A stretch of DNA of 11,666 nt from positions 1-11,666 of the forward strand of contig JAUXFG010000123.1 in assembly GCA_030620115.1 (NCBI GenBank), read 5' to 3'. The notes beneath the pieces are model-generated. The model did not search any database, was not told the DNA's origin, and worked only from the letters and a program-made list of their open reading frames with translations. Shown here piece by piece: positions 1,197 to 8,562 of this stretch. Numbering within the stretch: position 1 is the first letter of the stretch; every line of letters begins with the position of its first letter. Source of the stretch: Candidatus Fermentibacterota bacterium. GTDB taxonomy: Bacteria > JAFGKV01. The position numbers and the translations under genes were made by a program.

Positions 1197-1289
1197 TGTC
1201 ATTCTGAGCGTACGCGAAGAATCTCAAGACACATGATCTCGGATGCAATGAGAGAGATTCTTCGCTCCCTTAGGTCACTCAGAATGACA
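1197..1289. repeat. MITE-like bipartite inverted-repeat element
   Basis: The element has perfect 12-bp outer arms, TGTCATTCTGAG (1197-1208) and CTCAGAATGACA (1278-1289). It also has perfect 12-bp inner arms, GCGAAGAATCTC (1214-1225) and GAGATTCTTCGC (1254-1265). The 28-bp centre is unpaired and non-coding. The sequence 'CATTCTGAGC...GAAGAATC' is of a kind seen as dispersed intergenic repeats in many bacterial genomes. A half copy lies at 7323-7360. It sits between ligA and the NAD salvage gene and could fold in RNA from either strand. There is no ORF and no target-site duplication I can be sure of. Confidence 0.85.
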
Positions 1290-1395: not shown

Positions 1396-6983
<5,588 letters not shown>

Positions 6984-7041
6984 GCGCGTTCCTTCACCCA
7001 GCCCATCTTTCGGATTGATATTCGCGTGACAGATTGACGCA

Positions 7042-7090
7042 AGCCCACACTTCTCGTCCCGCGACGGACGCGGGACGAGAAGTGTGGGCT
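7042..7090. repeat. Perfect 22-bp inverted repeat upstream of smc
   Basis: The arms 7042-7063 and 7069-7090 are exact reverse complements of 22 bp around a 5-nt centre (ACGGA). The outer end reads AGCCCACACTTCTCG and the inner core is TCCCGC-N7-GCGGGA. No T-run follows on either strand, so it is not a standard intrinsic terminator. It lies about 60 bp upstream of the smc start codon and is related to the two hairpins at 9069-9119, which share the TCCCGC-N7-GC(G/A)GGA core. The flank GAGAAGTGTGGGCTA resembles GAGAAGTTCGGGCTA at 9123-9137. Confidence 0.85.
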
Positions 7091-7124
7091 AAGCTACGGT
7101 CTTGGAGCCCATGTGCAAGAGAGA

Positions 7125-7144
7125 GAGCCTCGGTTCGTCGGCTC
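7125..7144. other. Small inverted repeat
   Basis: GAGCC (7125-7129) and GGCTC (7140-7144) can form a 5-bp stem with a 10-nt loop next to the repeat cluster. It is short and could be chance. Confidence 0.25.
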
Positions 7145-7153
7145 GTCTGAGGG

Positions 7154-7207
7154 AAGGAATGTGTACGTCTTGTCCTATGGAGGGACGCGCTCCGTCGCGT
7201 CCGAAGG
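7154..7207 (+). repeat. 54-bp direct repeat, copy 1, with CTCCGT-loop hairpin
   Basis: This copy is identical to 7250-7303 except for one base (TCCTATGG here, TCTTATGG there), at a period of 96 bp. It contains the hairpin GGACGCG-CTCCGT-CGCGTCC at 7183-7202. The unit has no convincing coding function. Confidence 0.85.
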
Positions 7208-7222
7208 ATTGGCGCCGCCAGC

Positions 7223-7242
7223 GGCCATGACGGAGCATGGCC
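7223..7242 (-). repeat. CTCCGT-loop hairpin, inverted copy with a different stem
   Basis: On the minus strand this reads GGCCATG-CTCCGT-CATGGCC. The loop is the same six bases as in the two flanking hairpins. The 7-bp stem differs at three positions on each side and stays perfectly paired. The left flank ATGGAAGG also resembles ATGGAGGG of the plus-strand copies, so this looks like the same family in opposite orientation. Confidence 0.8.
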
Positions 7243-7249
7243 TTCCATC

Positions 7250-7303
7250 AAGGAATGTGTACGTCTTGTCTTATGGAGGGACGCGCTCCGTCGCGTCCGA
7301 AGG
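7250..7303 (+). repeat. 54-bp direct repeat, copy 2, with CTCCGT-loop hairpin
   Basis: This is the second copy of the 54-bp unit, with 53 of 54 bases identical to copy 1. Its hairpin GGACGCG-CTCCGT-CGCGTCC lies at 7279-7298. Confidence 0.85.
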
Positions 7304-7322
7304 CCGCCTCAGGCACTACCAC

Positions 7323-7360
7323 TGTCATTCTGAGCGAGAAGCAAGGAGCGAAGAATCTCT
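7323..7360 (+). repeat. Half copy of the TGTCATTCTGAG element
   Basis: TGTCATTCTGAGCG (7323-7336) and GCGAAGAATCTC (7348-7359) match the left outer and inner arms of the complete element at 1197-1289. The right arms are absent, so this is a solo left half or a decayed copy. Confidence 0.75.
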
Positions 7361-7437
7361 CCATACTCCATCATCTCAACGCTGAACGCTCTCTTCTTCC
7401 CAATCCCCCATTCCCCCAATCCGCAGATTCCAGATTC

Positions 7438-8289
7438 CTACGGGCACTCCACATCCTCGAGGTCGCTGTCCCAGCAGTGCCACTCATCATCGCTGAAATG
7501 CTGGATGTCGCGGACGCGCCCATCCTTGCTCGTTCGATTCCACTCGATATCGGTGTGATTGTCGTCACCCTTGTTGTAAATATCGTAGAACGCATCATAG
7601 GGCTCTTCCGTGGTGATGCCATAGAAGATGTACCCGCCGTTCTCGGGCCCGTCAGGTACGATATTGGTGTACTTGATGTCACCAGTGGCGTTCTCCACAT
7701 CGCGATTCCAGGCGATATCGAGCAGCTCATGCGGCTCGACGGGGCTCTCATAAAGCCTCCAGCTTCCGTGCGTGAGAAGGAGATCGGCTTCTCCGGTGTA
7801 CCAGAGGAAGTCCTGGTAGTCACCTTGCTTGCTCACATACATCTCCCACGTGGTGCCGATGCCGCCGAATCGGCCGTACAAAGCTGCCGTGTACACATTG
7901 CTTCCCACGGATACGCTGTATGTCCAGAGCCACGACCCATCTTCCTGCAATGTAGGCTCGTGGTTGAAGGACTCCACGAAGGTCGCCACGGGAACGGCCA
8001 GGCCCACGGTGATGATCGTGTTCCAGAACGTCACGTTGAGCGCGGCCCATCCCCAGTTCACCTTGATCATCGCTTCACCGGGCTTCGCAGCGGCGGGGAA
8101 AGAGAAAGCAGTGACTGATGAAGAAGCAAAATCCGAGAAATCCATGAGAAACGTGTCTTGGGGTGGGATCTCAGGAGCATCCGAGACGTCCGGCCCCGTG
8201 CTCTCGTCACTGCAGCCGAGCTGGATAACCAGAAAAGCTGGAACGAGAACCGCCACCCACCTCCGATACGGTCGAAGCAGATTTTTCAT
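7438..8289 (-). CDS. Putative secreted lipoprotein of unknown function
   Basis: I do not recognise a named family. The 283-residue product starts with a positively charged N-terminus and a hydrophobic stretch (about 11-24), followed by GC at 25-26. This suggests lipidation at Cys26, although the lipobox IQLGC is imperfect (Gln at -3). Ser at the next position would fit outer-membrane sorting. The mature part begins with a short acidic/proline linker and MDFSDF (about 49-54). It continues as a Trp/Tyr/Gly-rich region with no internal membrane segment, probably beta-rich. It ends with a Cys pair, Cys272 and Cys282, in HCW...ECP, which may form a disulfide. Acidic runs such as KGDDNHTD could bind metal, but this is a guess. 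The ATG at 8289 is chosen because a strong AGGAGG lies 6 nt upstream and the signal peptide begins there. It stands alone, with 273 bp and 454 bp gaps on its two sides. Confidence 0.85.
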   Translation of the reverse strand: MKNLLRPYRRWVAVLVPAFLVIQLGCSDESTGPDVSDAPEIPPQDTFLMDFSDFASSSVTAFSFPAAAKPGEAMIKVNWGWAALNVTFWNTIITVGLAVPVATFVESFNHEPTLQEDGSWLWTYSVSVGSNVYTAALYGRFGGIGTTWEMYVSKQGDYQDFLWYTGEADLLLTHGSWRLYESPVEPHELLDIAWNRDVENATGDIKYTNIVPDGPENGGYIFYGITTEEPYDAFYDIYNKGDDNHTDIEWNRTSKDGRVRDIQHFSDDEWHCWDSDLEDVECP

Positions 8290-8295
8290 CGCATA

Positions 8296-8301
8296 CCTCC
8301 T
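8296..8301 (-). promoter_or_regulatory. Strong Shine-Dalgarno site of the lipoprotein gene
   Basis: AGGAGG on the minus strand, 6 nt before the ATG at 8289. It rules out the upstream in-frame ATG at 8361, which would put 24 residues before the signal peptide. Confidence 0.85.
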
Positions 8302-8331
8302 CAGTTCGGCCTCATGATAGTCTTGCACGCA

Positions 8332-8344
8332 CGGCGTAGCGCCG
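8332..8344. promoter_or_regulatory. Small GC palindrome upstream of the lipoprotein gene
   Basis: CGGCG-TAG-CGCCG forms a 5-bp stem with a 3-nt loop about 43 bp upstream of the start codon. A TATCAT (-10-like) lies at 8314-8319 on the minus strand, but no good -35 is spaced correctly from it. The palindrome could be an operator; evidence is weak. Confidence 0.2.
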
Positions 8345-8562
8345 AACCATCCTGTTGACACCGTGTTTCACGCTCGGCCGCTTCACCTACAGCAAACACC
8401 GCATACCGACAATTCCGTCACCTTCCCCCATCACAAGAATCAATCAAGAAGATACCGGGCACCCACAACAATGGCAATGTGGTGAGTGAGCAGTGATTCC
8501 CGATCGAGTATCGAACTCGCTTCTTCCTCCTTCGTGATCCACGGACCCTCCTCAAACAGTCT

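Follow-up and report, generated by a model that had tools for sequence, protein, structure and literature searches.

The window analyzed here is an 11,666-nucleotide stretch from a Candidatus Fermentibacterota bacterium (genome G000; contig JAUXFG010000123.1, forward strand), in which an array of three short hairpins lies in an intergenic region next to an smc-like gene (Table 1). The initial annotation placed the hairpins at 7183-7202 (+), 7223-7242 (-), and 7279-7298 (+), and both coordinates and sequences were exact. In the predicted fold of the single-stranded DNA, each forms a 7-bp stem with a 6-nt loop (-8.5, -7.2, and -8.5 kcal/mol for copies 1, 2, and 3, respectively), and the A(+)/B(-) pair folds into one long hairpin. 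A tag is located directly at the foot of each stem (GGAG in both plus copies and the variant GGAA in the minus copy). The flank ATGGA(G/A)GG, which had been described as kept, was retained as T-GGAG at the stem foot, but the preceding A showed no conservation. The two 54-bp direct repeats share 98% identity, and the repeat unit of the array is approximately 96 bp, as in the array on contig C160 described below.

Table 1. Positions of the hairpin array and neighboring features in the window
Feature	Position	Strand	Description
smc-like gene	3426-6983	-	Named from its own sequence
Intergenic region housing the REP array	6984-7437		Between the start of the smc-like gene and the end of the minus-strand ORF
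54-bp direct repeat, first copy	7154-7207	+	Holds REP copy 1
REP copy 1, A type	7178-7203 (tagged hairpin 7179-7202)	+	T-GGAG, stem GGACGCG, loop CTCCGT, stem CGCGTCC, G
A(+)/B(-) pair	7178-7247		Tags outward, REPIN-like unit; 20 nt between tagged hairpins
REP copy 2, B type	7222-7247 (tagged hairpin 7223-7246)	-	T-GGAA, stem GGCCATG, loop CTCCGT, stem CATGGCC, G
54-bp direct repeat, second copy	7250-7303	+	Holds REP copy 3
REP copy 3, A type	7274-7299 (tagged hairpin 7275-7298)	+	Hairpin identical to copy 1
Minus-strand ORF	7438-8361	-	Its end borders the array region

Further copies were sought genome-wide, as the initial annotation had proposed. Using the pattern GGARGG-N5-CTCCGT-N5-CC, 125 exact matches were found in the genome of the window (4.1 Mb, 98% complete) and none with the reversed pattern as a control; the inner stem was left free in the search, and the recurrence of the hairpin is not due to chance. 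When the tag was left free and the loop and stem were fixed, GGAG was recovered at 92-99% per position and the preceding T at 86%; conservation spanned T-GGAG before the stem and a single G after it, and then ended abruptly. When the loop was left free and the tag was fixed, CTCCGT, CTCTGT, and CTTCGT were the commonest loops, and CTTTGT was also present. The whole element can be written as TGGAG-[7-bp stem]-CTYYGT-[stem]-G. Stems in the 100 listed copies were GGCCATG (B type, 42 copies), GGACGCG (A type, 24), GGCCACG (12), and rarer types. Inner stem pairs in these copies were Watson-Crick in 481 of 500 cases (96%), against a mean of 348 (70%) and a maximum of 379 when the 3' arms were shuffled among copies, and the 20 distinct sequences gave 85 of 100 pairs (shuffled mean, 60.5; maximum, 75). 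The earlier proposal that stem changes are compensated while the loop is kept holds for most pairs, with the loop written as CTYYGT.

The copies are placed mainly outside genes, since 3 of 49 lay inside an ORF ≥200 aa long, whereas 67% of positions drawn at random from the same loci did so. Among 24 neighboring pairs less than 120 bp apart, 23 were on opposite strands and separated by 17-21 nt with outward tags or by 28-29 nt with inward tags; the single same-strand pair was 82 nt apart. All opposite-strand pairs between A- or B-typed copies join A to B, and the arrangement with tags outward seen at 7178-7247 is the commonest paired arrangement genome-wide. The alternating, BIME-like orientation recognized in the window was thus also found in the A/B arrays of the genome, with opposite strands and regular spacings. 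In the broad sense, the elements belong to the REP/BIME class, being high-copy short palindromes that are extragenic, regularly spaced in alternating orientation, and present on both sides of a RAYT gene. The tag at the hairpin foot is GGAG and not the GTAG or GTGG of canonical REPs, and CGTC was not found at one end when the tag was left free.

A Y1-type (TnpA-REP) gene, the presence of which had been suggested as a check, was found in the same genome. A RAYT of 159 aa is encoded at C160:20649-21128 between two A/B hairpin arrays, so that hairpins of both types occur on either side. It was detected by phmmer over the fetched loci of this genome; the Pfam Y1_Tnp search of the genome missed it and matched four other Y1 genes. 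The protein contains the motifs DHVH (HUH), WQ (W motif), and YVRHNP (Y with NP) and scored 93.3 bits against NF047646 (cut-off, 80), and by these motifs and this score it is a member of the RAYT/TnpA-REP family. The best solved match by sequence was 4er8, a complex of TnpA-REP with a REP hairpin (E 5e-6), which was also the best Foldseek match (E 1.5e-8) of the predicted fold (pLDDT 84.5). There is a single copy of the gene for more than 100 copies of the repeat. The C160 RAYT is likely the cognate transposase of the GGAG hairpins, which it would bind and cleave. Two RAYT-like proteins of approximately 320 aa (loci L019 and L020, contigs C187 and C118) carry a C-terminal stretch matching the C-terminal region of DnaA, and no tagged hairpins were found near their genes.

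The GGAG repeat family crosses several phyla. An exact pattern scan detected the repeat in at least 105 stretches of species genomes, with up to 404 copies per genome; the MAG labels among the matches listed were Lentisphaerae, Kiritimatiellae, Verrucomicrobia, Opitutae, Pirellulales and Phycisphaerae (Planctomycetes), Desulfobacterales and Syntrophaceae (deltaproteobacterial), and Armatimonadetes. A blastn search of phage records gave no similar sequence, and the pattern occurred in only two viral contigs. Thirty-two repeat-bearing genomes were searched with a two-sequence RAYT profile. GGAG-N7-CTYYGT-N7' was located on both sides of all six RAYTs scoring above 230 bits, as well as of that of the window's genome (7/7), and of none of the 24 lower-scoring RAYTs, many of which carry other hairpins (GTAG-tagged or, in some, GGAG-tagged with a different loop). 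The profile had no match in 10 of the 32 genomes, and NF047646 had none in two of eight re-searched genomes (G003 with 344 copies and G013 with 100 copies); these genomes are MAGs, in which arrays break assemblies, and RAYTs that were lost or absent are also possible. In one Desulfobacterales MAG (L089, L104, L123, L171, and others), GGAG- and GTAGG-tagged hairpins have the same CTCCGT loop, so that tag and loop act as separate modules. Base pairing between the GGAG tag and CTCC in the loop was considered as a general reason for loop conservation and was rejected because CTYYGT occurs with GTAG tags and GGAG occurs with unrelated loops, for example TTTCA, TGTCA, and CCCT.

In a tree of 40 RAYTs, those with GGAG grouped in a single clade of 13 rows (support 99/98), and its sister clade was a GTAG one. 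For a wider comparison of tag and protein, 387 genomes were sampled from the phylum of genome G008, the RAYT flanks were fetched, and each tag was assigned from hairpins that lay within 400 bp of the RAYT and had a stem of at least 6 bp. When all 4-mers at the hairpin feet were counted openly, GGAG or GTAG ranked first in most of the loci that had a recurrent tag. A tag could be called for 93 RAYTs (50 GGAG and 43 GT[AG]G). In the column corresponding to H101 of E. coli TnpA-REP, the GGAG RAYTs had T (32), R (15), V (1), or H (2), that is, T, R, or V in 48 of 50, and the GT[AG]G RAYTs had H in 40 of 43, with R in two and T in one. This residue lies in the region discussed as involved in tag recognition, together with W94, Q95, E100, and R104 (Quentin 2018, PMC6006769). 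In a RAYT tree built without the columns around the residue 101 site, a GGAG group designated 'FDRY' was placed inside a supported and mostly GTAG clade, and therefore the tag and the residue appear to have changed jointly at least twice. Three independent pairs were supported by starred branches; on average, the residue was concordant in 1.4 of these pairs, and it was opposite in none. The association of tag and residue is tied to phylogeny, and three pairs are too few for the sign test to reach significance, so the trend is suggestive and not significant. Because profile columns 96, 91, 70, and 6 likewise separate the GGAG and GT[AG]G groups, residue 101 can be regarded as a candidate tag reader but not as a proven one. 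The balance tips slightly toward a REP tag code in which RAYTs with His101 would use GT[AG]G and those with Thr or Arg101 would use GGAG, the GGAG class being spread across several phyla, having arisen at least twice, and having a loop and stem that vary independently of the tag. The related RAYTs of L337 (GGAG) and of L324 and L343 (GTAG/GTGG) share the hairpin GCGGGGTG-CCCT-CACCCCGC and all have H at 101, and here the tag may have switched without, or before, a change in the protein.

The system resembles REP/BIME and REPIN families that have a TnpA-REP, such as the y and z REPs of E. coli (Nunvar 2010, PMC2817692; Quentin 2018, PMC6006769; Corneloup 2021, PMC8266576) in having a tetranucleotide tag at the hairpin foot, a high copy number, and extragenic placement, and it shares with them the two subtypes alternating in opposite orientation and the RAYT flanked by the same hairpins. 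It differs from these families in the tag (GGAG instead of GT[AG]G) and in the stem, which is perfect over 7 bp, lacks a bulge, and carries a 6-nt CTYYGT loop, and the C160 RAYT has T where the E. coli protein has H101. The GTAG and CGTC palindromic superfamilies (Di Nocera 2013, PMC3733652) are similar in size, stem length, inverted dimers, and occurrence in Planctomycetes and Verrucomicrobia, but the present family has neither tag; the variants given in that study are GYAG, GYRG, GTRG, GTMG, and GTGG, and GGAG is absent from the variants and the text. GTAG REPs with the same CTCCGT or CTCTGT loop on a perfect stem were observed in Desulfobacterales, Pirellulales, Verrucomicrobia, and others, and differ in that the tag is GTAG, which either lies at the foot or is separated from it by one spacer base; the RAYTs that such REPs adjoin (L212, L304, L333, and L348) have H at 101. 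Published REP tags are GT[AG]G or CGTC. The GGAG tag was not found in a search of openly licensed publications on REP tags, although an earlier notice is possible, and a literature search for the letters of the repeat returned unrelated papers only. What appears to be new is the GGAG tag. The automatic REP search of Quentin 2018 (PMC6006769) was filtered on GT[AG]G, and surveys filtered in this way would miss the GGAG class.

The hairpins of the window very probably belong to a high-copy REP family organized in REPIN/BIME units and maintained by a cognate RAYT encoded once elsewhere in the genome, with GGAG replacing GT[AG]G as the tag. This reading is based on copy number, covariation, strand arrangement, extragenic placement, physical linkage to a specific RAYT clade, and the joint variation of tag and residue 101, from which we infer binding, cleavage, and mobility, as well as tag reading by residue 101. 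The REP/BIME-like element named in the initial annotation is well supported by the copies, the covariation, the arrays, and the RAYT, whereas the structured RNA offered there as another choice is weaker. Hairpins kept as terminators or mRNA stabilizers would likewise be stable, intergenic, and covarying, and known REPs can act secondarily on mRNA. However, the strand of the copies alternates within the array, no T-run follows the hairpins, an Rfam search of the window gave no match at the gathering score, and conservation stops sharply at T-GGAG and at the single G past the stem; a transcriptional role would also leave the linkage to one RAYT clade unexplained, and we regard it as improbable.

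Two other sources of the repeats within the transposase family are more improbable still. The Y1/HUH fold is common to the IS608 and ISDra2 transposases, and MITE-like repeats derived from an ordinary IS200/IS605 element would be spread by an active insertion sequence and not by a single-copy RAYT; the numerical excess of the repeats over one RAYT gene, together with the RAYT-type Y motif with NP and the score of the C160 protein over the RAYT cut-off, makes such an origin very doubtful. Recognition of the GGAG repeats by another RAYT of the same genome was weighed as well. The gene on contig C200 is the sole classic RAYT among the four Y1 genes found with Pfam, is intact, and has the higher score against the general RAYT model (195 bits). 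It is flanked, however, by its own inverted REPs of the form GTAG-GTCGGGTTA-GCGCAGCG-TAACCCGAC (L021, 1409-1440 and 2003-2035), and no GGAG hairpin was found within 400 bp of its domain, so that it has very little chance of being the partner enzyme. That each RAYT has its own REP family within one genome is a feature of known REP systems.

For the REP family maintained by the C160 RAYT, the following course may be proposed. The 7-bp hairpin would fold when its strand becomes single-stranded, for example as the lagging-strand template, and the HUH/Y1 enzyme would recognize the tag at the hairpin foot and the CTYYGT loop. The enzyme would then cleave next to the element and copy or move A(+)/B(-) pairs into intergenic sites, and arrays such as that of the window might expand further via tandem duplication of the approximately 96-bp unit. 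REPs are among the commonest bacterial repeats, and their choice by domesticated transposases is partly known, from a few GTAG systems. With a one-base difference in the tag, a candidate specificity residue, and close relatives across the switch, tag reading is testable by single swaps.

Other repeats were also observed in the window. Adjoining the REP array is a perfect inverted repeat (7042-7090) whose 22-nt arms enclose a 5-nt loop, and no second copy was found in the genome when up to 3 mismatches were allowed over the central 41 bases. A second dispersed repeat, GTCATTCTGAGCG-N(~8)-AGCGAAGAATCT, is located at 7324-7358 (+), and two further copies form an inverted pair, face to face, at 1199-1225 (+) and approximately 1257-1289 (-); the pattern has 155 copies in the genome of the window, against none for the reversed pattern.
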